DNA from: a virus
Direction: 5' to 3' (one strand)
IMG/VR virus record: IMGVR_UViG_3300038465_000055
Location: 1-64,000 of that record
DNA: 64,000 bases
Positions 15,127 through 52,679 of this stretch are shown in pieces. Within the stretch, counting starts at the first letter, position 1. The number at the start of each line of letters is the position of its first letter. The position numbers and the translations under genes were made by a program. The notes below the pieces were generated by a model. It made no database searches. It was not told the origin of the DNA and worked only from the letters and a program-made list of their open reading frames with translations.

Positions 15127-15333
15127 ATGGCCATCAACACAAGCAACGAATTCCAGCAATCAAAGACACACTGCCCGGCAGGACATCCCTACACGCCAGA
15201 GAACACAATTCAGGTAAAATCGACCAAGCCGGGGCACTTCAAACGGCAATGCCGCAAATGCAAGAACCTCTCCGCCTCCAGACGCAACAAAGAAAAAGGA
15301 CCGCAAGCAGATAAGCCAGCGGCCCGAGTCTAG
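15127..15333 (+). CDS. small HNH-associated-type zinc protein
   Basis: 68 residues from ATG 15127, with GGAG upstream. It contains HCPAGHPYTPENT and RQCRKCKN, the Cys4 unit often found at the C-terminus of phage HNH proteins (CxxGHP ... RxCRxC) but without the catalytic histidines. The tail is Lys/Arg-rich. It is probably a DNA- or RNA-binding zinc finger, possibly a remnant of an HNH nuclease. It is the last rightward gene before the convergent late operon. Confidence 0.6.
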   Translation: MAINTSNEFQQSKTHCPAGHPYTPENTIQVKSTKPGHFKRQCRKCKNLSASRRNKEKGPQADKPAARV

Positions 15334-15446
15334 GGAGGAAACGCCCAAGGAGGGCAGCGATAGTGCGAAAGGTCGGACGGACGACTGCGATGCACTACCG
15401 CCGACTCGATCATAACCCTCTATTGCCGATTCCCTCAATAGATTTG

Positions 15447-29190: not shown

Positions 29191-29793
29191 TCAACCCTTC
29201 CATCGACGAAGGGCCGCCTCACTCATTCGTTTCCGAGTTTCCTCAGACCTCTTTCGGCCGACATTGATCGTGTTGCCTTTTTTGAAACAATTGTTCTCCG
29301 TCCTCGGTAGGGTATTGCCCACTCCTCCTCCTCCGCCGATCCTATTTGGCACCAATTCTCCAGATAGAAGCCTGCGAGTCATACGCTCGCTCAATACCCT
29401 CCTCGCTTCTGGGGAAGCGAATTGAGCCTTTGCTTTTCGACTAAGCTTGGCTCGAGTCTGCTCAGAAAAATTATGAGCACCACCACCGCCATCTGACCTA
29501 TTCCAAAGCGGCCCCTTTAATTTGTCAGCACGACCTATCTCATCGATCAAGCGGCGCTCGTTTTCGTAAGCCTCCTCTCTTGTGAGCCCACAAATTATCT
29601 TCTTGGGAACCACAGAAAGACCGCAGCCGATCGCATGAAGGATGCCAAGATTTTTTGAAGGGCTAATATTTTTCGCAAGCTCCCTAGCCGCATTTCTTAT
29701 GTGCATGTTCATGCGGTATCCGCTTCCCATTCCGATATATCTTGGGATGGGATCATCACCGACAAATAGGCCATAGACATAGAACTTGTTCAT
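29191..29793 (-). CDS. GIY-YIG homing endonuclease
   Basis: 200 residues from ATG 29793, overlapping the previous stop by 4 bp. The start MNKFYVYGLF and RYIGMGSGYRMNMHIRNA are the two GIY-YIG strands (here VYG ... YIG) with the catalytic Arg. E in EEAYENERRLIDEIGR is the usual acidic residue. The C-terminal half has repeated DNA-binding motifs of the NUMOD kind (SEQTRAKLSRKAKA, SERMTRRLLSGE, SEETRKRMSEAALRR). It is AT-richer than the flanking baseplate genes, and it interrupts a hub-to-tape-measure operon, as mobile homing nucleases do. Confidence 0.85.
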   Translation of the reverse strand: MNKFYVYGLFVGDDPIPRYIGMGSGYRMNMHIRNAARELAKNISPSKNLGILHAIGCGLSVVPKKIICGLTREEAYENERRLIDEIGRADKLKGPLWNRSDGGGGAHNFSEQTRAKLSRKAKAQFASPEARRVLSERMTRRLLSGELVPNRIGGGGGVGNTLPRTENNCFKKGNTINVGRKRSEETRKRMSEAALRRWKG

Positions 29794-30281
29794 GGCGACA
29801 CTTCTATTTGATTGTTGGCGATACGGTACACCAGAGTCGAGTTGAAGTATCCAGCGGTCAGGCTGATGTTCTCGCTGGCGACGCCAAGCCTCGTCGCAGC
29901 TCCCGGATCGGCCATCAGCGGATAGGTGAATGTGTACCGGCCTGTGACATAGGCGAGCACCTGACCGTTGTAGGCGTCCGGCGTCGAGCCCGTGATCGTG
30001 AGCGCCACCGTACTGCCGATTCGGTATGGAATGGGATTCGCAAGCGTCCCTGTCACAAAACCATTGGCCCATGACAGCTCCGCAAGATTGGCCCCGTTCG
30101 GAGATCCCACCATTGCCTTGTTGACGATCAGCGTGCCGTCGAGACCTGCGATCGCGAGATAGTATCGCTGCGCCGCCATATTAAAGGTGACGGTCGCGTT
30201 GTAGACCTGACCGTCCAGCGTGGGCTGGAACGTATAGTTCGCGGTCGGTACCGGCGTGAAATCATAATAGGTGATGCTCAT
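29790..30281 (-). CDS. tail protein with beta-module
   Basis: 163 residues. The N-terminal part (DFTPVPTANYTFQPTLDG ... YYLAIAGLDGTLIVNK) fits a short beta protein of tail tips. Residues 85-125 carry the shared module (PDAYNGQVLAYVTGRYTFTY, then PLMADPGAATRLG) also found in the sheath and head-decoration proteins. The C-terminal 35 residues (VYRIANNQIEVSP) close the fold. Probably a baseplate or tube-adaptor protein. Coupled to both neighbours. Confidence 0.65.
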   Translation of the reverse strand: MSITYYDFTPVPTANYTFQPTLDGQVYNATVTFNMAAQRYYLAIAGLDGTLIVNKAMVGSPNGANLAELSWANGFVTGTLANPIPYRIGSTVALTITGSTPDAYNGQVLAYVTGRYTFTYPLMADPGAATRLGVASENISLTAGYFNSTLVYRIANNQIEVSP

Positions 30282-31030: not shown

Positions 31031-31057
31031 CCATGACTCGAGTCGTGGTTTTTACCT
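31031..31057 (+). terminator. rightward hairpin-T5 in leftward operon, carrying GGTTTTTACC motif
   Basis: Arms CCATGAC (31031-31037) and GTCGTGG (31042-31048) close a 4-base loop. TTTTTACC follows on the + strand, a compact rightward terminator. It lies in the 38-bp gap between the tape measure and the next gene, all of which read leftward. Bases 31047-31057 (GGTTTTTACCT) equal the right arm of the operator at 5593-5603. Confidence 0.45.
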
Positions 31058-32742
31058 TACTGCGCAACTTGTCTTGTGTTGGTTATGACGGTGCCGCCTG
31101 CCGCATTCTCGATCTTGACCTCGACCTTTGGATTGTAGCCGGGGACACTATGTCCGTGCCTGATATATTTCTGCGTTTCCCATGGCAAAACGTTGATGTT
31201 GTCTCCCGTTCGATGAAACTTGTTGGCGCGACCGGGACCGGCATTGTAGGCCGCAAGGATTTCGTCCGTGTTGCCACCATAGCGCTTGGTCAGATCCGCT
31301 AGAATCGCATCAGCAACCTGCTCATTATACTTCGCATCTTTCAGGCGACTTGGATCAAATCCATACTGCCGCGCCGTGCCGGGCATGACCTGATATCTGC
31401 CGATCGCTCCAGCCGATGAAACCTCCTGATCGCCGCTTCCCTCCAGTTTGCGAACTAGCCCCTTGAGCCACGCGGCATCACCGGTACCTCCGCCAGCGTT
31501 CGCATTTCCGGAGAAAACATCCCATAGCTGCGACACCGCGCTCTTACCGGTCGTCTCGCGCTCCTCGCGCAATGCGCGCGCTCTATTCTTGGTCCCCTCG
31601 TATCCTTCGGAGCCTTCGCCGCCGCCCATCCATTCGATAAACCCACCGATCTTTTTGGCGATCGTCACCATGCCGTCGACGAACGTGCCGATAGCCTTTA
31701 GGAATTCCGGCGTCGAGACATAATCCGCAAATCCTTCTAGCCCTGCCGCAACCCGCTTGATGACGTCCTCGAGTCCCTTGTTACCGAGGAAGCGTTCAAC
31801 GACGTGCGTCGCTGCTTCTGACAGCTTTTGCAGCGGTCCAGTCAAAGGCGTGAGACCGCGAATGAACACCGTTTCGATCGTGTTGCCCGCCGCCCCCAGC
31901 CGCGTATTGAAATCCTGCCAGCGCTTCAGATCTTCCTGCGACACTCCCATCGCACCGCGATCGCGACCGAAGCTTCCGCCCAGCTCGTTCAATTCCTTGT
32001 AGGACGTGGCCTTCAACGCTTGGAACTGTTCCGGGGTAATGATCCCATCCAGCTTGCGCGCCGATAGCGTATCTGACAGCAGCGCATCCGGCGTTCTGTC
32101 TGCAAGCCGCTTCAGGCCGCGTAGGACGCGCATGGAGACGTCTGTAGTATCCCCGGTCAGATCCCGCTCGCTCAAGCCTGCGCCGTACAGGGACGCCCGC
32201 CCAGCCGCGCTATGCAGTGCCGAGTTAACGCCACCAAGGAATTCCGGTCCGACGATTCGGCCGAAGTTCGTGTTGAAAGCTTTCTGATCGCCGAATTGCG
32301 TGTTGTGGCCGAGCCCGTATTGCCGGCCAGCGCTGGCCGATTGCGCCAGCCGCTCGATGCCAAAGAGGCCGCCAGCGCCCAGCAACCCGGTAAAGATCCC
32401 GGTGAGCGTGCCCCATTTCAGCAGCGAATTTGTCGCGCTGGTAATGTTGGCTGCCACCGTCTTGGTATTGCGAGCCAGATCGCGCCAGTATTCCATCTCG
32501 GTCTTGGTGATGCGCAGCGCCTTCTCATGCGCCTCCGTCATCAGCTTCGCCTTGCCGATCGATGCCACCTCCAGCGCCACAAGCTCTTGAAAGCTTTTGA
32601 CGTTGCCTGTGACCATGTTCTGAATGGAGCGCAATTGCTGCGGATGCTTCGCGAGCAACGCCGAATACTGGCGATAGTTCGCATGGAATCGATTGAACGC
32701 GCTATCGTTCAGATCAATGTCGATGATAGATTTGACCGGCAT
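31057..32742 (-). CDS. tape measure protein with C-terminal lytic transglycosylase
   Basis: 561 residues. The first 400 are helical with one hydrophobic segment (WGTLTGIFTGLLGAGGLFGI). A domain near 425-520 has the SLT fold pattern: KLEGSGDQE with the likely catalytic Glu, SSAGAIGRYQVMPGTARQ, then DEILAAYNAGPGRANKF. The enzyme would open peptidoglycan during DNA entry. At about 0.15 nm per residue the measure part predicts a tail near 60-85 nm. It follows the chaperone pair, the usual order. Confidence 0.8.
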   Translation of the reverse strand: MPVKSIIDIDLNDSAFNRFHANYRQYSALLAKHPQQLRSIQNMVTGNVKSFQELVALEVASIGKAKLMTEAHEKALRITKTEMEYWRDLARNTKTVAANITSATNSLLKWGTLTGIFTGLLGAGGLFGIERLAQSASAGRQYGLGHNTQFGDQKAFNTNFGRIVGPEFLGGVNSALHSAAGRASLYGAGLSERDLTGDTTDVSMRVLRGLKRLADRTPDALLSDTLSARKLDGIITPEQFQALKATSYKELNELGGSFGRDRGAMGVSQEDLKRWQDFNTRLGAAGNTIETVFIRGLTPLTGPLQKLSEAATHVVERFLGNKGLEDVIKRVAAGLEGFADYVSTPEFLKAIGTFVDGMVTIAKKIGGFIEWMGGGEGSEGYEGTKNRARALREERETTGKSAVSQLWDVFSGNANAGGGTGDAAWLKGLVRKLEGSGDQEVSSAGAIGRYQVMPGTARQYGFDPSRLKDAKYNEQVADAILADLTKRYGGNTDEILAAYNAGPGRANKFHRTGDNINVLPWETQKYIRHGHSVPGYNPKVEVKIENAAGGTVITNTRQVAQ

Positions 32743-32746
32743 GGCT

Positions 32747-33528
32747 TCAGAATATGCCCTTCTTGGCGATCACTCCGGTTAGCGTCGCCAGCGAGTTTAG
32801 TATATACCGCTGCCGAAACTCATGGGCCGTACTCCAATCAGCCTCCGGATTGAGATCTTCCATGAAATCGTGGAAGCCCTCGTTCGCCGTCCAATTCAGG
32901 ATGGCGGCGACAATCCCTTGGCTGTCTCTCCAGAACTGGCGATCGCGGTCAACGTCGGTAAGGAATTCCGATAGGCCGTAGAGTTCAATGATGTTGTGTG
33001 CGCATCCCAGAGCGTACCGACCTTTCGGCCCACTTCTAACAGCATCGCCAATTCTTTTCGCCTGCGCATAACCGAGTTGACAGTAAAAAAAACGAGGATG
33101 TTTTCGACCTCGTCGGCGTCCTGTTTGTCCAGCACGCCCTTCTTGACTGCCTCGTCCATCCCCATGGAATGCCACGCCGTAGCTTTCCATTGAGGAGATT
33201 TGCCCTCGTCCTCAACCACGACAGCCTTTTCGTTCGGAACGATAACGTGAGCCAACCGCCTGACTTCCCCGATGACGTTCATCTCGACGCCCTGCGGACC
33301 TTCCCACACGCCCTGATCCTTGGCTATGTCCCGGAGCGCCTTTGCCGCGATGCGCGACCCGCCCGCGCTGCCATGGCCGCCGCCGAATATCTTGGAATAG
33401 GTCTGACCGAGAACATCCCAATACACATCGAACGTCTCCGGTGAGATAGGTGCAGCATGGACATAGACGACACCGCGATCTTCAGTTTCAACAGGCACGA
33501 CAAAATTCAACGTCTGATCAATCTTCAT
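32747..33528 (-). CDS. tail assembly chaperone, -1 frameshift product (G-T)
   Basis: A longer product arises if ribosomes shift -1 on the T run (complement of 33085-33092) inside the gene at 32896-33528. The shorter frame reads VFFTVNS here. After a slip at T TTT TTT the next codon is TAC and the frame continues YCQLGYAQAKRIGDAVRSGP, open to 32747 and ending GVIAKKGIF. The new tail is about 113 residues with a well-formed helical sequence (NWTANEGFHDFMEDLNPEAD). This is the standard G/GT arrangement in tailed phages. Confidence 0.8.
32896..33528 (-). CDS. tail assembly chaperone (unshifted G-type protein)
   Basis: 210 residues starting MKIDQTLNFVVPVETED. The layout (VYVHAAPISPETFDVYWDVL, then EVRRLAHVIVP, then DADEVENILVFFTVNSVMRR) matches tail-assembly chaperones that sit between tube and tape measure genes. 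The unshifted tail is Ser/Thr-rich (TTSLNSTAYRNSLPTLTAIA). It binds the tape measure during tail assembly. Overlaps the shifted product in the segment before 33087. Confidence 0.75.
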   Translation of the reverse strand: MKIDQTLNFVVPVETEDRGVVYVHAAPISPETFDVYWDVLGQTYSKIFGGGHGSAGGSRIAAKALRDIAKDQGVWEGPQGVEMNVIGEVRRLAHVIVPNEKAVVVEDEGKSPQWKATAWHSMGMDEAVKKGVLDKQDADEVENILVFFTVNSVMRRRKELAMLLEVGRKVGTLWDAHTTSLNSTAYRNSLPTLTAIASSGETAKGLSPPS

Positions 33529-33576: not shown

Positions 33577-34023
33577 TTACGCAGCATTCCACATCGCATT
33601 GTTCACGTAGTACGTCGATTTGAAGCGTACCGTGAACGCCGGATTTGTGCCTCCAGAGTCGAGTCCGTCGACGCCTTCGATCGCCGCATTCACCACGTCG
33701 AACGGTGGAATGGCTGCGGTATCGAGCCGGATCGAACAGTTGCCCAACCGCGTGTCGTTTTCCCATGCCGCCTTGTAGAGCGCCGCAAGCGCGACCGTCT
33801 TGACGATCCCCACGCTGAAGGAAAACATCATCCACGGTTCCGGCGACGTGACGGCGCCAGCCATCGCCGCAAGGAATTGCGTCATGTCGCCGTCGATCCC
33901 AAGCTTGATCGCCTCTTTCGTCATGTTTTGAGCATTGACGTCGAGCGACGGGAAGGCGTCAAACAGAACGCTGCCGCGCAGCCTGTTGAGCGAACCGAGC
34001 TGAATGAGAGGATTGGCAGCCAT
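33577..34023 (-). CDS. tail tube protein
   Basis: 148 residues. Between sheath and chaperone genes, the expected place. Contains GSVLFDAFPSLDVNAQNMTK and a beta-rich end (GNCSIRLDTAAIPPFDVVNA, then VRFKSTYYVNNAMWNAA). Length fits contractile-tail tube proteins. Call is by position and size more than by sequence. Confidence 0.65.
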   Translation of the reverse strand: MAANPLIQLGSLNRLRGSVLFDAFPSLDVNAQNMTKEAIKLGIDGDMTQFLAAMAGAVTSPEPWMMFSFSVGIVKTVALAALYKAAWENDTRLGNCSIRLDTAAIPPFDVVNAAIEGVDGLDSGGTNPAFTVRFKSTYYVNNAMWNAA

Positions 34024-34050: not shown

Positions 34051-35436
34051 TTATGCGTTGACGATGAAATTCGAAACCGAGAGATTGTATATGATCTGTT
34101 TGAACCCGCGCGCCGGGACATAGGCAATCGACAACCCGCGGTATATCCCCGCCGGGAAGTCGGTCGGATTTTCCGCAGCATTGATCAGGAATGGTTCGGC
34201 GTTGACGACGGTCATCCCGGTATAGGCGCCAGATTCAAACGCTGTGATGAAGTCGCTCTGCGAGAGCTGTGTTTGTATAGTGTTGCCATTGAGAACGAGG
34301 CCGTTTGTGACACCTTGCTGCATCGTGCTCAATGCAACCCGCTGTATGCGGTTGATGCCGTTCTGATCATAGTACAACGGATTGTTTTTGTTGTTCGAAT
34401 TGGCGACGACATAATTCGAGGTATTGAGGTCGAGGTTGATTTCAACCCAATCGACCGAATACCAATAGAGCATGTCGTTGCCGTCCAGCGACGTGCCATC
34501 GCGCAGGATGACGTTCGACAACCCGGCTTCCGAAGCTGGGCCACCATAGTTGACGAAAGCCGCTTCGAACTCGGTGGTCTGCGTTCCGAAGCCCGCCGCC
34601 GGCCATGGCGTGATGCCGAAGCCGTAGTTGTAGCAGAACGGAGTCGCCTTGCTTGTGGATGACGGATTCTGCCCGATCAGGCTGCGGAACGGCCATGCCG
34701 CGCCGAATTCGGTTGGCGGCGCATCTGGCGATGGAATGAAGATGAACGCCGACTTGTCCGCGCCAACATAATCGGTGTAGGTCCCCGGCGTGCTGGTCGT
34801 GATGAAGTAAAGCCGCGATGTCGGAGTCGTGTATTGCGCTATCAGCGCGAGATACTGCGACAGGCCATCCCATTCTGACGGGACGAGGAACGCATAGATC
34901 GTGCCGGGATTGGCCGCGATATAGGTCGCCAGCGCAGCGATCGCAGCAACCGGCGCCAGATCGCCCAGCTCAAGCACATAGGGTGCAACCTGACTCCCCT
35001 GCGCCCAGAACGTATTATTCTGCGTGACCAGCTCGTTGACGTCGGCAGATATCCAAGTGCCGGGCACCGTTTCCGCCCCCGGATTCGCCGCCAGCGGATA
35101 AGTAAAGGTGCTGGCACCGGTCACCGTCGCCAAGAATGTGCCGTTGTAAGCAGCCGGCACCGCACCAACGATCGCGACTCCCAACGTCGAAGGATTTGGA
35201 AGCCCATGAGGCGCCGCGGTGGTAACGGTTGCGATACCACTCAGCCACGTGATCGAGGTGATCGCCGCCCCCGGCGTCAGGATCGAATTGATGGAATTGG
35301 ACTGCGTCAGGAGTTGCCTCGTCCCCGGCGCCAGCGTGGTGCCTCCGACCGAAACGATGGCGCCAGTTTGCTGCAAGGTCGAAGGGGCGGGCGCGGAAAC
35401 GATGTTCGCGTTGACGATCGTGATCGGATTGCTCAT
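34051..35436 (-). CDS. tail sheath protein
   Basis: 461 residues. The N-terminal 100 residues contain a beta-module (ATVTTAAPHGL ... PAAYNGTFLATVTGASTFTY, PLAANPGAET). The rest has the alternating alpha/beta layout of contractile sheaths (DUF3383-type), including YVLELGDLAPVAAIAALATY, LVPSEWDGLSQYLALIAQYT and a C-terminal GFKQIIYNLSVSNFIVNA that would link neighbouring subunits. Lies upstream of the tube gene. Confidence 0.8.
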   Translation of the reverse strand: MSNPITIVNANIVSAPAPSTLQQTGAIVSVGGTTLAPGTRQLLTQSNSINSILTPGAAITSITWLSGIATVTTAAPHGLPNPSTLGVAIVGAVPAAYNGTFLATVTGASTFTYPLAANPGAETVPGTWISADVNELVTQNNTFWAQGSQVAPYVLELGDLAPVAAIAALATYIAANPGTIYAFLVPSEWDGLSQYLALIAQYTTPTSRLYFITTSTPGTYTDYVGADKSAFIFIPSPDAPPTEFGAAWPFRSLIGQNPSSTSKATPFCYNYGFGITPWPAAGFGTQTTEFEAAFVNYGGPASEAGLSNVILRDGTSLDGNDMLYWYSVDWVEINLDLNTSNYVVANSNNKNNPLYYDQNGINRIQRVALSTMQQGVTNGLVLNGNTIQTQLSQSDFITAFESGAYTGMTVVNAEPFLINAAENPTDFPAGIYRGLSIAYVPARGFKQIIYNLSVSNFIVNA

Positions 35437-37298: not shown

Positions 37299-40200
37299 TC
37301 AGTGACCGCTGTTGAAACTCGACGTGCCATTATAATTTTGCCAGAACGGCGAAGTGAGCGGGTTGCAGAACAGACTAGTACACGAACTAAACCCCCATTG
37401 TTGCGAGAGAAGAAAATTCAAAGACGAAGGAGACCCCGAATTAGGCATCAAACCAAAGGTGACTTGATTGATGTCGGTCCCCATGAATCCCTTGTAGTAA
37501 TACTCCCATGTCACGGCGAATGACGGATCATTCTTATACCCGGTAAAAACTGCGTCATTGAAAGCGTTGGCCGCTCCTGTACTCGACGGATCAGAGAACG
37601 TGATGCCTTCTCCCGCGTTCGTTCCCGTGGCATTGCCAGATAGAATCACATAGTTGCCGGTGCATGTTGTAGGGCATCCGCTGTTGATCGACGAAACCGT
37701 CAGCCCCGAAATATCGCCCGCGGCAACCGTCATCCCTGTGTAATAGCCAAGAGCAGTCGAGAGACTGTCGACGACGGTGTTTGTGTGAGTCGACCCGGTA
37801 ATTCCAACCGTAGTGCCGATCTGGATCGGAGGCACCGCCGCAGCGAAGGTAGCTGCCGCATAAGGATTAACTTCAATGTCGCCTTCGTACCACCGCATCA
37901 AAACCGGACCCATCCCAGAAGGTCGAGGATTGGCTGCCGTCCCGCAACTCTGTTGAGTGGAGCTGCTGTAGCTACAGGCAAGAGTTTGCCAGAGCTGAAG
38001 ATTAGTCTGGACCGTGGAATTGTTGCCTTGCGTAAAAGTAAATGGCGTCGATGTGTATATCAGAGAGTTTAGCGACAACGTACCGGTGCCGGGCGTGCCG
38101 CAATTTACATCGCTGCCGTTTTGGATTCCGGCAGTGAACCCTTTCATGGTGAAGTTCCACGGCGAAGTGGTCAGCGCCGCCCCCGCGGATGTTGTGGCTG
38201 CACTTGTGACGTAGAGACCGGCCCCACCGGTCGTGCCCGAGGTCTGGCTGACGATCGTGGTGGTGATGGTGGACGGAACGCCTGTGCCAGCAACCGCAGC
38301 ACCTATCGCAATGGTGCCCGTGACGCCGGTTACGGTGAGGTTGGTTCCGCTGCCAGTCCCCGTGAAGCTGGCTGTGCCGGTGATGGTGTCCGTCGTATAG
38401 ACTTGGTTTCCTGCTAAACCACTTGGAAGCGTTCCACCGGGCGATGTGAACAGGAAGAAGTTGCCATTCCCTCCCGGCTCGTATGACGATGCGCCTGTCC
38501 CCGTCGTGAACGTGGTGCCGCTGCAAGTAAGTGCTTGGGGTGCTCTGCGCGGATAAGTCCCCCTCAGGTCTTGGTCGATGAGCGATATGGCGGCGGCTTC
38601 GCTGCCGTTGATCCAGTCGTTCACGACAGGTTGGAAAAACCAAGCTGATGCTAGCCCGAATCCAGAGCCTCCGACGTCCGACCCGTTCGTGATGTTGTTG
38701 CCGCCAACATATGGCGCACCTCCGATCGTGTTGATGTCGTCGATGGGGCGGTTAGGATAAACATTTCGTCCTGCTACTGAACACCCGCTGGTAAACGTTC
38801 CGCCAAAATGTACGCAAAGTGGAGCGTTCGTTGCTGTGCTTAGAAGTGACCCGCCCAGAGCCAAGATATAATCGCTGGAAGAAAGGGCGCAGCAGAATTG
38901 CCCCATCATGGCGGCTTCGTAACGAGAGCGATTTGAGCCACTAAATACGGACGAAAATGCAAGCGCTGTGTCCGAAGCCAGCACCGCCATGTAGTGCGTA
39001 TAATCGAGCGGAGAGCCGTTGGTTATATTGAGCCAGTTCTCACGCTGGATCGCCAGCCGCCATGGTTGATACGCCGGATTCCAGACCTCATTGCCATCTT
39101 CAGTAAGCACCTTGAGCGGCGCTTTCATCAAACTAAGAATAAGGGAGGCCGTTCTGGTCTTGTAAGTGTTGGTGGCCGTTATCGGAAGATTCAGCCAGAA
39201 GTTCGCGTCGGTCTGATTGGCAAGATTGATGAAATACTCATACGGCGCCATGCCCGGCGAGACGCCGCCGCCCTGTTCGATGACCCCGCCTAAAATGGCA
39301 TCGTAAGCAAACGTGGAGTAGCCGGTGCCGAGCTGGTTGGAATTTATTCCACCACAGTTGTCGTTGTAGCCCTGTCCTTCGCAGTTCAAGATGAACGCTT
39401 GAGCGCCGCCGGCCTTCGTGGAAACAACGATTGCAAATGGACTTATGTAGCCTAGGCAACCGGAACAGGCATGGACAAACGCTGTGTTGAAGGTGACGTG
39501 GTAGCCATCACTTGAGATGTTAGTTATTGTCTGGACGCCACCAGCCTCGGTGGTGCCGCTCGTCAATCCATTGACATAGAGCACATTTCCGACAATGGCG
39601 GCGGACACGTTGCCCGCGTAAAGCGCCTGCGCCGCAACAGTCTGCGAAACGCTGACAGCATAAGTTCCTGTGCCACCGGCCCCCGTGCAAGCAGGCGCAC
39701 AAGCAGATGAATTGGTCGTGGAGTTTCCGACAATCGTGGTGTTGGCCGCAACCGACGTTCCGGAGATAGAAAAGACCGTGTCTCCGAGCAGTACGGAGGC
39801 GCTGCCGCCCCCGTAGCTGTTGAAGGCGCTGACGGTCATCGTCGTACCAGAAATGCTGGCCGTCGTCATCTGGCTGTGCGCGATCGACGCCGAAACGCAC
39901 GGACCGCCGCCGCAGTTGGTCGTGCTGTCTCCGACCGCGTTGACTAGAGTCCATCCCGGCGTCGGTCCTGTGCCGGGATTTCCCATCACGGTGTCGCCAT
40001 CAGCCCATGCCCCTAGGCTCTGGTCGTTGGCGCTGTTGTTCATGTCGTCAGAAGGCGCGCAGGTAAAAATATATGGCGCCTGTCCTGACGAGCCAGCCGT
40101 GAGCGGACACGTCGGCGTAGTATTGCCCGCTCCTCCGGAACGAGCGCTCGGCACATTACGGCTGGTGAATGTGAGATGGAGGTCGGTGATCTGAGCACGA

Positions 40201-41096
40201 TAACCAAACGTCGTCATCTTGGTAGTGTCGGAAGCGCTTGATCCCATATTTCGGAGCCAGCCGAAGCCAGCTCCCTTTATGGCTGCTACAAATTCAGGAA
40301 CGAAGAACGAGCCGGAAGCCCCGCTGGTTGACATCGCAAGCGCGTATTGGGAGCAATCATCGTTCGGCGCGCCGCCGTTATTGGTGCTCCGACAAAGTAT
40401 CCACTCGCCGCTGCCCGGCGCAAAAGCATAACCCGTCGGATAAAGAATGGAGAGACCGAAGCACTGCGACGTGCATTGAAACACTGCCGTGCCAGCCGTG
40501 CTGCCGTTGCACTTGAAATTCTGGTTGCTGCTGGTGAACGTGCCCGGTGTGCCGGAACCGCTGAGCGTCATTCCACCCGTGAAAGACGACACCACAAATG
40601 TCGGCGTGGTCGTATTGCCGAAAACTATCGACATGAACGGACGTGTCGCGGCGCACGACAGCGTATAGGTTGAGTTTAACCACAGACCATTAGTCTGCGA
40701 ACCAATCTGCTGCGTCAGCGTCGTAATCGGATATTGGCTACCATCGACGTCGATGGAAGTATTGTTGTTTGTTGCTTGGTTTCCCCTCAGGGCATTTGTG
40801 TAAGTGATCGGCGTAAGATCCGCGCCGACACTGAGCATTACTTGGGAAATGCCGGCGGGTGGCGATAAGGGCGCTGAACCATGACGATAGCCGACCGGCA
40901 GAAAGCGAGACTCACCTTGGCCGAAAAATTTAACGGCTCCCGACAACGAAGCCTTCTGCTCAATGATTAGATGCTGGATCTGAATCGAGTAGGCCAGAAG
41001 ATTATTGCGCTGCGGATTGACCGGCATCGCAAAGGAAGTCGTCGTCGCCAGTGCGACTACCACACCAGCCAGAGCTGATAAAAATCTTTTGAACAT
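37299..41096 (-). CDS. giant exported virion-region protein (1265 residues)
   Basis: Signal peptide MFKRFLSALAGVVVALATT, cleaved after SFA. The mature protein is Gly/Ser/Thr/Asn-rich. It has at least three copies of a beta-repeat: (a) ISGTTMTVSAFNSYG ... GTGTYAVSVSQTVAAQAL, (b) FTGTGSGTNLTVTGVTG ... GGAGLYVTSAATTSAG, (c) a copy ending TGNYVILSGNATGTNAGEG. Cysteine pairs are common (ACAPAC, GCPTTC, ACSGC), as in proteins folded outside the cytoplasm. The middle (about 600-900) looks globular and Trp/Tyr-rich and has no family I can name. It is the last and largest of a cassette of exported proteins. Confidence 0.7.
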   Translation of the reverse strand: MFKRFLSALAGVVVALATTTSFAMPVNPQRNNLLAYSIQIQHLIIEQKASLSGAVKFFGQGESRFLPVGYRHGSAPLSPPAGISQVMLSVGADLTPITYTNALRGNQATNNNTSIDVDGSQYPITTLTQQIGSQTNGLWLNSTYTLSCAATRPFMSIVFGNTTTPTFVVSSFTGGMTLSGSGTPGTFTSSNQNFKCNGSTAGTAVFQCTSQCFGLSILYPTGYAFAPGSGEWILCRSTNNGGAPNDDCSQYALAMSTSGASGSFFVPEFVAAIKGAGFGWLRNMGSSASDTTKMTTFGYRAQITDLHLTFTSRNVPSARSGGAGNTTPTCPLTAGSSGQAPYIFTCAPSDDMNNSANDQSLGAWADGDTVMGNPGTGPTPGWTLVNAVGDSTTNCGGGPCVSASIAHSQMTTASISGTTMTVSAFNSYGGGSASVLLGDTVFSISGTSVAANTTIVGNSTTNSSACAPACTGAGGTGTYAVSVSQTVAAQALYAGNVSAAIVGNVLYVNGLTSGTTEAGGVQTITNISSDGYHVTFNTAFVHACSGCLGYISPFAIVVSTKAGGAQAFILNCEGQGYNDNCGGINSNQLGTGYSTFAYDAILGGVIEQGGGVSPGMAPYEYFINLANQTDANFWLNLPITATNTYKTRTASLILSLMKAPLKVLTEDGNEVWNPAYQPWRLAIQRENWLNITNGSPLDYTHYMAVLASDTALAFSSVFSGSNRSRYEAAMMGQFCCALSSSDYILALGGSLLSTATNAPLCVHFGGTFTSGCSVAGRNVYPNRPIDDINTIGGAPYVGGNNITNGSDVGGSGFGLASAWFFQPVVNDWINGSEAAAISLIDQDLRGTYPRRAPQALTCSGTTFTTGTGASSYEPGGNGNFFLFTSPGGTLPSGLAGNQVYTTDTITGTASFTGTGSGTNLTVTGVTGTIAIGAAVAGTGVPSTITTTIVSQTSGTTGGAGLYVTSAATTSAGAALTTSPWNFTMKGFTAGIQNGSDVNCGTPGTGTLSLNSLIYTSTPFTFTQGNNSTVQTNLQLWQTLACSYSSSTQQSCGTAANPRPSGMGPVLMRWYEGDIEVNPYAAATFAAAVPPIQIGTTVGITGSTHTNTVVDSLSTALGYYTGMTVAAGDISGLTVSSINSGCPTTCTGNYVILSGNATGTNAGEGITFSDPSSTGAANAFNDAVFTGYKNDPSFAVTWEYYYKGFMGTDINQVTFGLMPNSGSPSSLNFLLSQQWGFSSCTSLFCNPLTSPFWQNYNGTSSFNSGH

Positions 41097-41102
41097 TTTT
41101 TA

Positions 41103-41903
41103 TTAAGTTCCTGGATACCAGTATGCCCACGGATTTTCGGACCACTTCAACAGAGTGTTGAACGACAGCATGTTGCCAAAATTAAAACTATACATATACG
41201 CAGCGATGTGACCCGGAAACGCTGCCACTGCCGCAGTGTGGTTGCCTATGTTGAAGGTGCCGTCACCTGCCGAGGCTCCGACGCTGGCCAATGCAGCCTG
41301 TGTGGCCACTACTTTTCCCGTCGCCAGATTGCGAATGATTCCGTCAATTGAATTTGCACCGTTGGCATAGTTACTGAAGGCCGCAAAGTAAGGCACCCCA
41401 ACCGCAAGCGCATAGCCAGCAGTCGGAAACGCTCCGGCGGTTTCCGGAAATAAAACAGGAGCAGTACTTACAAGCAAAGAGTTGCTCGTATTTGCATTTG
41501 CCGTGCTGTGGAGAGCAGCCGTGACTGTTGGGATGCTGTCCATGACGAAAATGCAACCATACGTAAAACCACCGATCGGATTCCTTGCCGAGAAACCGGA
41601 AAACTCGATCTGATCCGTGCTGGCGCCGTTGAACTTGACGCTTGGACCGATCACCGGGTCTAGAAATCCAGTCGGAGCACCAATGATCGTTCCCGGTTTG
41701 CCACCTAGAAGGTTTGTGAAATTCCCGCCTAAATTGGCCACCGCCGATATCCACGGCTGTCCAGAAACAGGATGACTCTGATTCATCCCCGGAGCCACCC
41801 CAGCCGGAAACGCAAACGGCGGCCTTTGAGCTGCAAACAGTTTGCGCGACGGCAACAGGAGGGCTGGGGCAGCAACTTGGATAAGACGACGGCGCGACAG
41901 CAT
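41103..41903 (-). CDS. Tat-signal, LamG-like lectin protein
   Basis: 266 residues. The N-terminus MLSRRRLIQVAAPALLLPSR has a twin-arginine motif followed by a hydrophobic segment, so a Tat signal is likely. The mature part has the concanavalin A/LamG sandwich layout: VKFNGASTDQIEFSGFSARN, FTYGCIFVMDSIPTV, GKVVATQAALASVGASAGDG, and an end LLKWSENPWAYWYPGT like that of many LamG proteins. A glycan-binding function is plausible. It is the only Tat-type protein in the cassette. Confidence 0.65.
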   Translation of the reverse strand: MLSRRRLIQVAAPALLLPSRKLFAAQRPPFAFPAGVAPGMNQSHPVSGQPWISAVANLGGNFTNLLGGKPGTIIGAPTGFLDPVIGPSVKFNGASTDQIEFSGFSARNPIGGFTYGCIFVMDSIPTVTAALHSTANANTSNSLLVSTAPVLFPETAGAFPTAGYALAVGVPYFAAFSNYANGANSIDGIIRNLATGKVVATQAALASVGASAGDGTFNIGNHTAAVAAFPGHIAAYMYSFNFGNMLSFNTLLKWSENPWAYWYPGT

Positions 41904-42548
41904 TTAGTTTTGTCCTGCAATCGGAGCTAACTTTATCAAATTTCCGGTCCCGCCCAGCGCAGCGCCACAGTTATTTTGGGTCATCACCTTGAACTGAAGT
42001 GCAGGAACGTTAATCGGCCCCGGCGCTTTATAGGTGTTGGTGCTGATCGCAGCAGTGGGAAGAAAAATTATAGCATCTGGAGAGCGGACCATTTGCGCTG
42101 CTGTGGCAGTCTCGAACGTTGTTCCGTCTCCGGTTTGAAGAAACCAGATCGAGATGTTGCCGCCCGCCGTGCACGTCGCGGTGGCGCCAGAGGTGAAGAA
42201 GATTTCACCGAGTTGTGCGCCGCCTGTGTTTGAATTGTTGAACAGTCCAGAGGTGCCACCAACCGAACTGACGGCAACCGCACCATTGGCTAGCGCGTTC
42301 AATTCTATCGATTCCAGCGTCAGCAGCGCCGAGTAAAGACCATTGTTCGACGAGCCGAGATACCATTTGTGCGGCCCTGCATTCGGCGCGCAGTTTCCGT
42401 CATCTCCGGTTTGCGTGCTCATACCGACCGAGGACGGCACGTTGTTGTTGATCGAGATCGGATTGGTGCACGCCGCCAGCGCTGGCGCGGCGAACGCGAT
42501 CAGCCAAAGCACGACTGCTGTTAGTGGTGCTGCGAGACGCTTGATCAT
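41904..42548 (-). CDS. exported structural-type protein
   Basis: 214 residues with Sec signal MIKRLAAPLTAVVLWLIAFA, cut before ACTNP. The mature part is beta-rich with cysteines (NCAPNAGPHKWYLGSSNNGL, then TCTAGGNISIWFLQTGDG, then NNCGAALGGTGN). Its layout resembles the beta-tripod or fibre-domain proteins next to it. No family recognised. Confidence 0.6.
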   Translation of the reverse strand: MIKRLAAPLTAVVLWLIAFAAPALAACTNPISINNNVPSSVGMSTQTGDDGNCAPNAGPHKWYLGSSNNGLYSALLTLESIELNALANGAVAVSSVGGTSGLFNNSNTGGAQLGEIFFTSGATATCTAGGNISIWFLQTGDGTTFETATAAQMVRSPDAIIFLPTAAISTNTYKAPGPINVPALQFKVMTQNNCGAALGGTGNLIKLAPIAGQN

Positions 42549-42560
42549 AGTGATCGCTCC

Positions 42561-42746
42561 TTACCGGAAGATGAGAGAGAAATATTGACTGTTGCAGGCT
42601 TGCGAAAAATCCAGCTCGTTCGAGCACGAGTTCCCGCCACCACTGCCGGCGCCGAGCAGCATGATGCTTGCCGCGCGCGACTGATCGCCGCGAACCGAGC
42701 ACGACGCGATCGCGATGAGAACGAGAATGATAATGCGCTTCTTCAC
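42561..42746 (-). CDS. small lipoprotein
   Basis: 61 residues from GTG 42746, fixed by GAGGAG at a good distance; no ATG lies in frame nearby. N-terminus VKKRIIILVLIAIASC has a lipobox (IASC). The rest is short and Gly/Ser-rich (GAGSGGGNSCSNELDFSQAC). Membrane-anchored; a function in handling its exported neighbours is a guess. Confidence 0.6.
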   Translation of the reverse strand: MKKRIIILVLIAIASCSVRGDQSRAASIMLLGAGSGGGNSCSNELDFSQACNSQYFSLIFR

Positions 42747-42757
42747 GTATCCACTCC

Positions 42758-45700
42758 TCAGAATTGCATGTAGCTGATCGAACCGGCGACAGCCACCGCT
42801 GCCGTTGTAATGGCGCACAGCGCGTTTCCTGACGGCACCTTCAAGATCGTCCCCACACCGCCGCCTTTCGTAAGACCCGGATTGGACGTGCTCAGAGAAT
42901 ATGCCCCGCTAAGTGTGCCCTGCCCTGTAGCGCAAGCCGTTCCAGTTCCGTAAATCCATTGGAACGTGTCCACACCCGCGGCCATGAAATCTTCCGACGT
43001 GACATAGATCGACGTCGAGCCCGACAGCGCGACGATCTGGGTTGTAGTCGCCGTCGAGATGCTGATCGGCGCAGACAGGCTGTCCTGCGACAAAGTCTGG
43101 CGCCCCACGCCAGTTCCGGTCTGACCTTGGCCGGTTGCCGTAGCCGTTCCAGCCGTCTGGGCATTGTTGGTCTGCACCACAACGCTGGGCGCCGAGCCCG
43201 CCAGCGTCGCGGTATCGGTGGCAACGGTGACTCGAGGAACTGTGGCTCCCTGCGCTCCGGTACCGGTGGCCACCGCGGCGTTGCCGACCATCAGGTTGGC
43301 AAAGAGACCGTTCGTGGCACTCAGGACCGCGTTGCCTTGCAGGAGGTTGGAGAAGATGCCGTTGGTCGCTGACAAGGCCGAGCCGCCTTGCGTGAGACCA
43401 GCCGTCCACGTGCCCGATTGCGTGGCTGCAACCGTGCCTGTGATCGTGGTCGACGTCAGCGTCACGGCAAGACCGGAGACACCCGCCGCAACCAGCAATT
43501 CACCGCGCGAACTGAATAGCAGCGCAGCCTGTTGCGTGTTCGTCATTGTCGGCTGCGCCGAAAGATACTGACCGCCGACCGTGAGCGCGCTGGTCGACGC
43601 CGCCGTCGCCGCATTGAGCGGACCCGTAACCTGCGGGATCGGCCCCTTGATATCGTCGTCAAGCTGGCCGAGACAGCCGATGATGGTATTCCCTGCAACC
43701 GAGCAGGTATGCGCCGAGGTGATCGTTCCCTCGACGACGTTGGCGCCGTTGGCGAGCGAGCCCGCTGCGAACGCACCGGACGCGAACGCGCCCGACGCAT
43801 AGGCGCCCGAAGCGATCGAGCCCGACGCATAGGCGCCGCTCGCCACCGCACCGGACACCATCGTGACAGCACCGCCCCCACCGCCCACCTTGACGTTGAC
43901 TAGCAGGTTGCCCGCGGCATCCATCTGGAACGGCGAGAAGTTCCCGGACGTGATCGTGGCCGGCGTCGTGTTGAACTGGCCACCGACTAGAACTGAGCTG
44001 AATGTGCCCGTCGCGTTCTGGCCAGCGAAATCGAGCAGCGCGCCGGCATTGCCGACGATCCGATCGCTCCACGTGCCAGATTGCGTGACTGGAATGGCGC
44101 TCTGGTTGCTGGCGATCGCAACCGAGACGCTATTGGCCATCGTGACTTGGCCGTTTGGATTGACGCTATTCGGCGAGATCGATACGACGATCGCCGTGTC
44201 GGTAGCCAACGGCGGCGTGCTCCCGAGCTTGATTGCCGCCCCGACGACGTTCTGACCAGCCGCGCCCGTGACTGTACCGCCGAACACGACCGGGGGATTG
44301 GCGTTCGCAACGCCCACTGCCGTGGGACCAAAGACCGCCCCCCCGCCGCCGCCGCCGCCGGTGCATCCAGAGATACAAGCGACATTCAGGGCATTCGTGG
44401 TCGAGGCTATGACGTTCCCGGAGCCGTCGACGATCTGGGTTTTTGCCGCGCCGCTGGTTTGCAAGGTGGCCGTGGCCGCGCCCGTGGGAAGGCTGATAGT
44501 TCCTGTGATGTTGTTGATGTTGTTCGTGGCGCCGGTGAGCTGGACGCCAAAGGTACCCGTTCCGACGACGGTCGCATTGAGGGCCGCCGCCGTGGCCTGC
44601 GTCACAGCGAACGAGCTGTTGCCGATCGAACCGCCGGCCTGAAATGGCGTTCCAAGCGCTGCTATGATAGTCGCCTGATTGGCCGCCGTGCCGGCTCCCC
44701 CCAAGGTGCCAAGGTTGACCGTAGGCGTTGCCGCGAAGGCAGGGAGCGTCCCCAAGATGCCAAAGGCCGTATTGGCGATGCTGCCACCGGCTTGGAACGG
44801 CGTGCCCAGCGCCGTCTGGATCGCCGCCAGCGTGGTCTGTGTCGCGACCCCCGCGATGGTCCCCAGATTGACGGTTGGCGTCGCAGCAAACGCAGGCAGC
44901 GTGCCCGTGATGCCAAACCCGGTATTGGTGATCGAGCCGATCGCGTTGGTGCCCGCAGCGAGCCCAATCGACCAAGCGCCAGACTGCGCGGCCGGGAATG
45001 TGCCGCCAGCGCCGGTAACAAGCAGCGCCGAGCCGTTCGAACCGGTATTGGCGAGAGAGACCTGAAGCGGGGCCGCCGATACGCCGACTTCCGCTCCCGC
45101 CGCGTTGCGCAGGTTCATCATGACAGCGCGGAATTCCGTCAACTGCACCATGCCCTGATCGCCAGCCGTCAGGGGATTTGCCGTCACCGTCGTCTGATAG
45201 AAACCGCCCGCGCCAGCGAACAGCGAAGCGCCGGCCGCGAACAGCGCACCATCCGCCGTGCTCACGCCCGAACCCGAGCAGTTCGAGCACTGGATATTCA
45301 GGTTGCCGCCGGTACCGGTGAGCGGAACAAGATTGCCGCCCTGCAACATACCGACGTAGGTGGCCGAGCCCGGCGCCAGCGTGGCCACCGCTCCAACGGA
45401 CGCATTCGGAGCCGCGCCGCAGCCCGTGCCGCAATTGAATGTCGGGGTGGCCGCAAATGCCGGGAGCGTGCCGCCGAGACTGACAGTGCCGCTGACCGGT
45501 TGCGTTACCGCAGATCCGTCGACCATGAGGCCATTGGCGGTCGCGACCAATCCCGTCAGGACGCCGCCGACGCTGGCGCCGAGATAGGTGGCAGAGGCCG
45601 GCACCGCGATCGAGGTGAGCGCAACCGACGCATTCGATCCGTTGCAACCGCTGACGCAATTGACATTCGGCGTGCCCGCAACCGAGACAGGAAGGGTGAC

Positions 45701-46126
45701 CGAAGCCTTGATGCTTACCCATTCTCCATTGGTGACGTCGCCGAGCTGCGGCTGAAAATTACCCGACACATCCTTGAAGCCGCCCGGCGTGCCGAAATTT
45801 CCGATCGGGCTTGCGAAGGTGGCCGAGACGCCAGTGCCGCTGCAATTCGAGCATGTGATGCTGCCGGTGACTGCAAACGTAGCTCCCGCGCCGGGCGAGA
45901 CAAAGATCGGATTGGCCGACACACCCATCGGGTTGCCAGTCTGATCCTGAATGACGTTAGCCGCGCATATGACGCTGTTCGAGCAATTGAACCCATGCAG
46001 TTGGCGCGGGATCTTGTAGGCGTCGAGGAACGAATAATTAGGGAACGTGGCCTGTTGAGCCAGAGCTGGGGAAAGGCCAACGAGCGACAGCGACCAGATC
46101 GCCAATGCCAAGAGAGCTTTTTTCAT
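42758..46126 (-). CDS. giant exported repeat protein (1122 residues)
   Basis: Signal peptide MKKALLALAIWSLSLVGLSP, cleaved after ALA. The mature protein has long imperfect repeats. LPAFAATPTVNLGT and GTPFQAGGSI each occur twice, and a short tandem region reads SGAYASGAFASGAFAAGS. Cys-pair motifs are CSNCSG (twice), CVSGCNG, CISGCTG and CGTGCG. A C-terminal block (VGGQYLSAQPTMTNTQQAAL) and the end AVAVAGSISYMQF are familiar from phage or prophage appendage proteins. The DNA is repetitive. The fibre-tail adaptor is encoded directly upstream. It is probably a surface appendage; why it is exported is unclear. Confidence 0.7.
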   Translation of the reverse strand: MKKALLALAIWSLSLVGLSPALAQQATFPNYSFLDAYKIPRQLHGFNCSNSVICAANVIQDQTGNPMGVSANPIFVSPGAGATFAVTGSITCSNCSGTGVSATFASPIGNFGTPGGFKDVSGNFQPQLGDVTNGEWVSIKASVTLPVSVAGTPNVNCVSGCNGSNASVALTSIAVPASATYLGASVGGVLTGLVATANGLMVDGSAVTQPVSGTVSLGGTLPAFAATPTFNCGTGCGAAPNASVGAVATLAPGSATYVGMLQGGNLVPLTGTGGNLNIQCSNCSGSGVSTADGALFAAGASLFAGAGGFYQTTVTANPLTAGDQGMVQLTEFRAVMMNLRNAAGAEVGVSAAPLQVSLANTGSNGSALLVTGAGGTFPAAQSGAWSIGLAAGTNAIGSITNTGFGITGTLPAFAATPTVNLGTIAGVATQTTLAAIQTALGTPFQAGGSIANTAFGILGTLPAFAATPTVNLGTLGGAGTAANQATIIAALGTPFQAGGSIGNSSFAVTQATAAALNATVVGTGTFGVQLTGATNNINNITGTISLPTGAATATLQTSGAAKTQIVDGSGNVIASTTNALNVACISGCTGGGGGGGAVFGPTAVGVANANPPVVFGGTVTGAAGQNVVGAAIKLGSTPPLATDTAIVVSISPNSVNPNGQVTMANSVSVAIASNQSAIPVTQSGTWSDRIVGNAGALLDFAGQNATGTFSSVLVGGQFNTTPATITSGNFSPFQMDAAGNLLVNVKVGGGGGAVTMVSGAVASGAYASGSIASGAYASGAFASGAFAAGSLANGANVVEGTITSAHTCSVAGNTIIGCLGQLDDDIKGPIPQVTGPLNAATAASTSALTVGGQYLSAQPTMTNTQQAALLFSSRGELLVAAGVSGLAVTLTSTTITGTVAATQSGTWTAGLTQGGSALSATNGIFSNLLQGNAVLSATNGLFANLMVGNAAVATGTGAQGATVPRVTVATDTATLAGSAPSVVVQTNNAQTAGTATATGQGQTGTGVGRQTLSQDSLSAPISISTATTTQIVALSGSTSIYVTSEDFMAAGVDTFQWIYGTGTACATGQGTLSGAYSLSTSNPGLTKGGGVGTILKVPSGNALCAITTAAVAVAGSISYMQF

Positions 46127-50675: not shown

Positions 50676-52679
50676 TTAGTGTTGGGTCGGCATGCGGGTA
50701 CCGATGAAGTTGACGTTGCGGTGTGGGCGCGACATCTGCGCGAAGATCGTGCCCTTGCCGACGAACCGTGTGATCTTGTGGCCGCCCGGTGCGGTTTCCT
50801 TGATCTCGCGATGCTGGAATGGCTGCGCATCTGTCGGGTCCATCGCCGCCTTGAAGGCGTCTGCCCGAATGCCGTCGAGCGCGATCGTGAAGCCCTTGGC
50901 ATCGGCAGCGATCACCGCCAGATCGACATCCTTCCACGTTTTTGAGTGGGGCTGAAGCTTGCGGGCAAGCCGAATGTTGTAGGCGACAATATCCTCGCCG
51001 GACATCGGCGGATCTGCGCTGTCATTCATGGCGCGCAGCACGACGTCGGCTTTCGCCTGTGCATCTGCGAAGGCATCGCGATCGGCCTGCGTCATCTTGC
51101 GCGGCTGCATCGAGGTGACCATCGCCTGAAGCTTTTCGAATTCAGAGCGAGGAACGCTGTCAGCCTTGGCTGCATCAGCCTTCTCTTTCTCTTTTTCCTT
51201 GTCCTCGGCATCCTTCTTGGCAGCATCAGCCTTTTCTTTTTCCTTCTCTTTTTCCTCAGCGTCCTTGCGCTTCTTGTCGGCTGCCGTCTCCTCGGCTCCC
51301 TCGCCGTCTTTCTTGGCGCCGTCCTTCTTGGCCGCGTCTTTCTTCTTCTCCTCCTCCTCCTTTTCGGAATCGGACTTGGCGGCGTCCTTTTTCTTTTCTT
51401 CTTCCTTCTCTGCGTCGCGCTTCGCCGAGTCGGACTTCACCGCGTCCATCACAGCATCGTACTTCGAATCCATTTTCTGACAGTGCGAGGCCATGTCCTG
51501 ACGGAGACCATCCGCCATCTTCTTGAACGAATCCATGATGGCGTCCATCACACCATTTGCGTGCGAACCAACACCGGCCTCATCAGCAGCCTTCTTATCG
51601 GCATCCGCCTTCTTCTCTGCTTCGGTTTTTTCGGCCACGCTGGAATCTCCTCTGATGATGTGATCGCTGCTAATTCCGGCGGGCTCCCCGCCTTTGTCCC
51701 AAACACCCTGCTGGCAGATCGCGACATGATCTAGCAAACCGGGGTCGCCTTCAATGAGTAACAAGCTCTTGTCGGGAAGTGCTACGGACTGATTTACACT
51801 GAGTTTCGTGAAAACAACAGTGGGACTTGTGGACAGCACGCCTTTTTCCATCTCGGCGTTGGCCTCGTCGTCATAGATCTTGGCCACCGCCCAGACTTCA
51901 TCTTCGTCGATGTAGGGCACAAAAACGGTGCCGACGATCCGCTTGGCGAACTCTTTTGACGTCAGCTTCGCCTTAGCCGGGTGCAGCCAGATAACCGGCA
52001 GCCCGTTGCATCGATCGAGGAAATCCTGATTGAGATAGTGCTCTGGCGGCCGATAGACGTGCTCGTCATAGACGATCGTCTTGCCGTCGTCGTCCTTTCG
52101 CTTCTGCGCCTTGCGGAATGACCGGCCCGTACCCGTGATCCGCATCGTCCACATCGTCATGTTGATGTAGCGCTGCGGCGACATTAGCTCGCCCGCGGCC
52201 ATCGCGCGCGCGATCCCCAGCTCATTCATCGTCAGCTTGTCGAGCGCGATCTGACAGCCGGGATGCAGCGGTTGCGGCGCGTCGCCGATCGACGACCACA
52301 CGAAGCCGTCATGCTCCTCATTCAGCTTAGGTGTGAACTGGACCGGGACGCGGACAAGGAACGTCGTGAAATCAACCATAGGCGGAGGCGGCAGCTCGAC
52401 CACGTCAGGAACAAGCGACGCCGGCTTTTCAGCTACATCCTCCAACACCGGCTTGATGCGCCTTGCGTGCAGACGCAGCGCCGCTGGCTTTACCTTGTAT
52501 CCGGTCTCCTCCTCGACCTCGCGGATTGCCGCACCATCGGCGTCCTCGCCATCCTCGATTTTTCCACCGGGAAACGCCCAACGGCCGATCTGGTCGCCGT
52601 CAGCGCGGCGCAGGAATAAGGCTTTGCCCTCGGGATCGAGGAACAGGATGCCGGCGGCGCGAATCACATTATCGGTCAT
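50676..52679 (-). CDS. Nudix hydrolase - DUF2213 prohead protease - scaffold fusion
   Basis: 667 residues in one frame. Residues 1-140 form a Nudix domain with a complete box GGKIEDGEDADGAA, then IREVEEETGY (residues 39-61, GX5EX7REUXEEXGU). Residues about 160-340 match DUF2213 (MTMWTMRITGTGRSFRKAQ, then FLDRCNGLPVIWLHPAKAKL), the prohead protease class. Residues about 355-520 are a low-complexity Lys/Glu/Ala/Asp helix, scaffold-like. A C-terminal domain (530-667) follows. The protease part matures capsid or scaffold. The Nudix part may hydrolyse a nucleotide or NAD-type molecule. I cannot decide whether the fusion is cleaved. Confidence 0.8.
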   Translation of the reverse strand: MTDNVIRAAGILFLDPEGKALFLRRADGDQIGRWAFPGGKIEDGEDADGAAIREVEEETGYKVKPAALRLHARRIKPVLEDVAEKPASLVPDVVELPPPPMVDFTTFLVRVPVQFTPKLNEEHDGFVWSSIGDAPQPLHPGCQIALDKLTMNELGIARAMAAGELMSPQRYINMTMWTMRITGTGRSFRKAQKRKDDDGKTIVYDEHVYRPPEHYLNQDFLDRCNGLPVIWLHPAKAKLTSKEFAKRIVGTVFVPYIDEDEVWAVAKIYDDEANAEMEKGVLSTSPTVVFTKLSVNQSVALPDKSLLLIEGDPGLLDHVAICQQGVWDKGGEPAGISSDHIIRGDSSVAEKTEAEKKADADKKAADEAGVGSHANGVMDAIMDSFKKMADGLRQDMASHCQKMDSKYDAVMDAVKSDSAKRDAEKEEEKKKDAAKSDSEKEEEEKKKDAAKKDGAKKDGEGAEETAADKKRKDAEEKEKEKEKADAAKKDAEDKEKEKEKADAAKADSVPRSEFEKLQAMVTSMQPRKMTQADRDAFADAQAKADVVLRAMNDSADPPMSGEDIVAYNIRLARKLQPHSKTWKDVDLAVIAADAKGFTIALDGIRADAFKAAMDPTDAQPFQHREIKETAPGGHKITRFVGKGTIFAQMSRPHRNVNFIGTRMPTQH

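Follow-up and report, generated by a model that had tools for sequence, protein, structure and literature searches.

A −1 frameshift in the tail assembly chaperone gene of phage lambda, which gives the proteins G and GT, was reportedly described in work by Levin in 1993 and by Xu in 2004 and 2013. The lambda system has been reviewed (PMC5009743). In the Vandenendeviridae and Andersonviridae, a poly-T slip site with the motif GTTTTT has been proposed for the corresponding pair TAC-N/TAC-NC (PMC12846349). Which motifs are slippery was worked out with reporters in E. coli: both the heptamer U_UU.U_UU.Y and the tetramer U_UU.Y allow a shift, the tetramers U_UU.U and U_UU.C being shift-prone in the presence of a stimulator, and the A-site tRNA must re-pair (PMC4066793).

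In the 64,000-nucleotide stretch of viral DNA analyzed here (the window), a sheath gene, a probable tube gene, a chaperone gene with an extension in the −1 frame (the T frame), and the gene of an SLT-domain tape measure protein follow each other on the minus strand (Table 1). The chaperone gene lies between the tube gene, which was named by its position, and the tape measure gene, the placement typical of a G/GT pair, and the tape measure as the next downstream gene is common to the window, lambda, P2, and HK97. A sequence-only reading of this DNA had correctly placed the gene ahead of the tape measure, whose ORF starts at 32742. With lambda, the locus has in common a (here predicted) −1 shift at a heptamer, a chaperone ahead of the tape measure, and short and long forms with a common N-terminus. 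With P2 E/E′, it shares the contractile tail, the gene order sheath-tube-chaperone-tape measure, and a −1 T-run heptamer (T_TTT_TTG in P2). No sequence relation was found either to lambda G/GT or to P2 E/E′. Because position, phase, heptamer, two conserved frames, and suppression of synonymous change all fit, we consider a −1 G/GT tail chaperone frameshift at T_TTT_TTT very probable.

Table 1. Features of the predicted frameshift locus and its neighboring genes in the window
Feature	Position	Strand	Evidence or remark
Tail sheath protein, contractile tail	34051..35436	-	PHROG 205 tail sheath, E=2e-27
Probable tail tube protein	33577..34023	-	PHROG 6566 (unnamed); name from position
Tail assembly chaperone, short form G, zero frame, 210 aa	32896..33528	-	PHROG 11810, E=1.3e-36, residues 1-206
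Shine-Dalgarno-like GAGG, possible stimulator	33108..33111, within a base or two	-	16 nt upstream of heptamer
Slippery heptamer X_XX.Z_ZZ.N = U_UU.U_UU.U	33086..33092, to one base	-	Sequence, phase, conservation
Stretch coded in two frames: 62 G codons past the site and G stop	32896..33084	-	Codon-position substitutions, synonymous suppression
−1 extension, T domain, 112 codons post-slip	32747..33091	-	PHROG 14324, E=7e-12; tblastn matches in 12 phages
Tape measure protein with transglycosylase (SLT) domain	31057..32742	-	Pfam SLT, E=1.5e-11; PHROG lytic tail protein

The G half and the T half represent two separate PHROG families (11810 and 14324), both of unknown function. The same module is present in five inducible Yersinia phages, which are contractile-tailed by electron microscopy; the text on these phages contains no mention of a frameshift (PMC9224151). 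None of the eight phage records carrying relatives has a frameshift annotation, in RefSeq the E. coli W copies bear the name hypothetical protein, and a G-T fusion annotation for the family PHROG 11810/14324 was not found in the records or literature examined. The mechanism is of a known kind, in a family that is so far without frameshift annotation in these sources. The proposed reading corrects the annotation of this widespread family, recorded as hypothetical proteins without a fusion, and the copy of the module in E. coli W, a common laboratory strain, makes the prediction directly accessible to test. Pfam searches with G and T gave nothing useful, and searches of the PDB by sequence and fold revealed no relative of G and nothing useful for T. 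In a viral fold library, G had one unnamed match (E=3e-4), followed by numerous proteins named as tail assembly chaperones, with weak E values (~0.08-1).

Some further features of the window were recorded. A GIY-YIG/NUMOD3-like homing endonuclease (29191-29799, minus strand) is located within the tail module and immediately follows the gene at 30281-29790. In the interval between capsid and tail genes (37299-46126, minus strand), four ORFs of 1265, 266, 214, and 1122 aa show no Pfam or PHROG match, and three of them have signal-peptide-like N-termini. A 667-aa protein encoded near the capsid gene (50676-52679, minus strand; PHROG 6216, function unknown) carries an N-terminal NUDIX domain and, beyond it, weak similarity to head maturation proteases. 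Finally, positions 15284-15362 (minus strand) match Rfam RF00519, the suhB/mmgR small RNA, with 58 bits, above the curated cut-off. This RNA is known from alphaproteobacteria, and the match in a viral contig may indicate the host or a phage-borne copy.

The slip site reads GTTTTTTTTACTG on the minus strand (33093-33081, read directly from the sequence). Within the G ORF, the codons are GTT TTT TTT ACT, confirming the T-run motif that the sequence-only reading had assigned to the chaperone frame. The run comprises eight Ts (33085-33092), and the zero-frame heptamer consists of the last seven of them (33091-33085), after GT. A slip of one base backward changes the reading to TTT TTT TAC and leads into 112 open codons that end with a stop at 32749-32747; the earlier estimate had been about 113 codons with the same end. 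Neither the window nor the rest of the 74.7-kb contig contains a second T8. Shuffled 64-kb sequences contain on average 1.6 such runs, indicating that the presence of T8 alone is not unusual. TTT accounts for 25% of the Phe codons in the structural genes of the window and for 43% in all G ORFs. What goes beyond chance is the place of the run, its phase, and its conservation.

We infer from this arrangement that ribosomes slip here at some frequency and that the two products divide their labor. Most ribosomes would stay in frame at GTT TTT TTT ACT and produce G, whereas a minority would slip one base back on U_UUU_UUU while tRNA-Phe occupies the P site as well as the A site. The slipped tRNAs could re-pair fully, and reading would resume at UAC to give GT. 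The predicted fusion of 260 aa would retain residues 1-148 of G, lack its 62 C-terminal residues, and carry 112 others instead, namely a linker of ~20 residues followed by the helical T domain; NILVFFYCQLGYAQ is the peptide stretch that spans the predicted junction. By analogy to lambda, G would coat the tape measure protein, and the rarer GT would recruit tube subunits. In the AlphaFold2 model of G (mean pLDDT 84), the slip-site Phe residues 147-148 lie within a helix (residues 135-154), which is followed by a helix at 157-170 and a short C-terminal helix. The model of T begins with about 20 disordered residues and continues, from residue ~21, as a helical bundle with a pLDDT of mostly 80-94. 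T is independently conserved.

A single-protein search of viral contigs gave no matches, and alignments were used instead. The homolog set comprised 185 distinct G ORFs, 183 of them readable at the site, with relatives from many bacteria. Conservation of the T run in homologs had been proposed as a check of the frameshift, and it holds: T_TTT_TTT_A is present in the same frame in 165 of the 183 distinct genes, and the full heptamer in 37 of 39 lineages with less than 50% identity to one another. Some of the searches used peptide patterns containing FF. Because such patterns could favor the slip site, we also gathered loci via the neighboring tube protein, a route that does not presuppose FF. 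In this unbiased set the heptamer is retained in 84 of 94 readable genes, in agreement with the main set. An in-phase slippery sequence, as expected for a G/GT pair, is conserved among the homologs.

The other readable homologs carry G|TTT|TTT|A (n=9), TAT|TTT (n=4), T9 (n=2), TTT|TTC (n=1), or C|TTT|TTT (n=1), or are damaged (n=1). G_TTT_TTT occurs in one enterobacterial clade, which includes Serratia, and in a separate metagenomic pair. C_TTT_TTT and T_TTT_TTC were found at one locus each and TAT TTT at four loci, all with both frames intact. A broken T run next to two intact frames had been named by the sequence-only reading as evidence against the frameshift. Such homologs do exist in a few clades, but every intact homolog has a T directly ahead of a TTY codon (T_TTT in 181 of the 183 and T_TTC in one; the remaining gene, with T_TTA, is a damaged copy with a shifted reading frame), and the heptamer model is therefore refined and not refuted. 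For the clade with TAT TTT, a search for alternative slip sites gave no slippery heptamer in phase within 45 nt of the site, and such sites were rejected: the one shift-prone motif that the four members have in common is the T_TTT tetramer, in an unchanged position. Judged by their sequences, the broken-run variants probably represent weakened or re-tuned sites rather than counter-examples. This natural series of heptamer, weakened heptamers, and bare tetramer would allow the required G:GT ratio to be related to slipperiness.

The same variants bear on transcriptional slippage, by which the polymerase would add or drop a U on the T run and the resulting mixed mRNAs would encode G and GT. Most homologs contain T8, a run about as long as those on which polymerases are known to slip. 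However, both frames are also kept with T7 (L003, L013, L107, and others), with T6 (G_TTT_TTT), with the interrupted run TTT TTC, and with only T4 (TAT TTT), and the conserved feature is the codon-phased T_TTY and not the length of the run. We regard this explanation as very unlikely.

The −1 frame had been described as protein-like in the earlier reading, and the homologs bear this out: it is a conserved coding extension, as in other G/GT pairs, and in each of the 180 intact loci it continues for 94-133 codons beyond the site without a stop. After random synonymous recoding of the overlap, it stayed open in only 1-37% of the trials per sequence (13 sequences tested). We further compared substitutions in 350 pairs of related genes. 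Before the site, the first, second, and third codon positions show differences of 0.21, 0.14, and 0.57. Within the overlap the values in the G frame are 0.18, 0.28, and 0.30, and past the G stop those in the T frame are 0.24, 0.18, and 0.50. The level of synonymous change, about 0.5-0.6 ahead of the site, drops to 0.065 at the codon directly before it, and amounts to 0.00 and then 0.06 at the two Phe slip codons. Beyond them it remains low (0.16-0.43) until G ends, and only in this two-frame overlap. A drop that starts at the proposed slip and lasts to the end of G is the pattern that two overlapping coding frames produce. The number of G codons past the site is mostly 53-89 in the family. With about 60 codons in the window, this overlap is a clean case for the study of dual coding.

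A T frame under such constraint might also be translated alone from an internal start codon, without any frameshift, and a start-like codon is indeed found 24 codons into the T frame in 14 of the 39 lineages. Against this, the T frame of the window and of several other lineages contains none of the codons ATG, GTG, and TTG between −15 and +39 codons relative to the site, a Shine-Dalgarno-like sequence is present in few of the remaining lineages, and an internal start leaves the conservation of the T run unexplained. The program-listed −1 ORF opens upstream at an unrelated ATG (33190), which is a mechanical outcome of ORF calling and not evidence for an independent start. As it is not conserved across lineages, we rejected the internal start, which we hold to be even less probable than slippage of the polymerase. 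A sequencing or assembly indel, with G and T truly forming one frame (T9) or T being debris, is hardly credible: homopolymers are error-prone and T9 joins the two frames in two homologs (L168 and L226), but T8 or T7 was seen repeatedly, in independent isolates, in prophages, and in metagenomes, conservation of the G frame continues beyond the site, and the overlap is constrained in both frames.

Two kinds of exceptional loci were observed in the family. In L168 and L226, T9 makes G and T an obligate fusion; either the sequence is in error here, or the switch was lost naturally. In L098 from Kluyvera, a frame change is located upstream of the site and the −1 frame stops early, following what seems to be an internal deletion; this chaperone gene looks like a decaying prophage gene.

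Stimulators of the predicted −1 frameshift were sought on both sides of the site. Downstream, no excess of structure was found over 50 or 90 nt in the window and 39 lineages. The mean folding z-scores across lineages, calculated for pseudoknot-free structures, were −0.1 (50 nt) and −0.4 (90 nt). Downstream structure is not present at every −1 site (PMC4066793). Upstream, anti-Shine-Dalgarno pairing exceeds the background across lineages, and the Glu at codon −7 is encoded by GAG in 29 of 31 lineages versus 56% elsewhere. The spacing range used for upstream Shine-Dalgarno-like sequences is 6-17 nt (PMC4066793), which places the GAGG of the window at its edge. Close pairs show no reduction of synonymous change at GAGG, and a protein motif E-V-E explains part of the signal. 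A role of GAGG as a stimulator is suggestive only.

The locus had been taken for a standard G/GT pair, which applies to gene order, phase, heptamer, and the two frames. It does not apply to the end of G. Because G continues for 62 codons past the slip, GT would swap rather than append a C-terminus. We tentatively propose, as a possibility that we would not yet call probable, a distinct variant of G/GT in which slipping takes place within a helix some two-thirds of the way along G, the next 53-89 codons specify two functional protein ends simultaneously, and the C-terminus is swapped, with an efficiency that was maybe re-tuned several times by single changes, down to the bare T_TTY.

In lambda and P2, the slip is located near the 3′ end of G, a feature that is not a strict requirement for membership and that the window lacks. 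Our comparison of overlaps covers lambda, P2, and HK97, and the same script recovered the heptamers of lambda and P2. Only 5 G codons follow the heptamer G_GGA_AAG of lambda, compared with the 62 behind T_TTT_TTT in the window. In P2, E extends 6 and E′ 57 codons past the heptamer, in the window G extends 62 and T 112 codons, and the overlap in HK97 comprises at most 17 codons. With regard to the E. coli rules, the window site U_UU.U_UU.U fits U_UU.U_UU.Y, and the variants in the family correspond to weaker contexts, the shift-prone tetramer U_UU.U, or U_UU.U_UU.C (PMC4066793). The Vandenendeviridae and Andersonviridae resemble the window as myophages with a poly-T site and a −1 frame that is open in all members (PMC12846349). 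Their site is described near the 3′ end of TAC-N (PMC12846349), whereas that of the window lies two-thirds into G and is followed by a long overlap.
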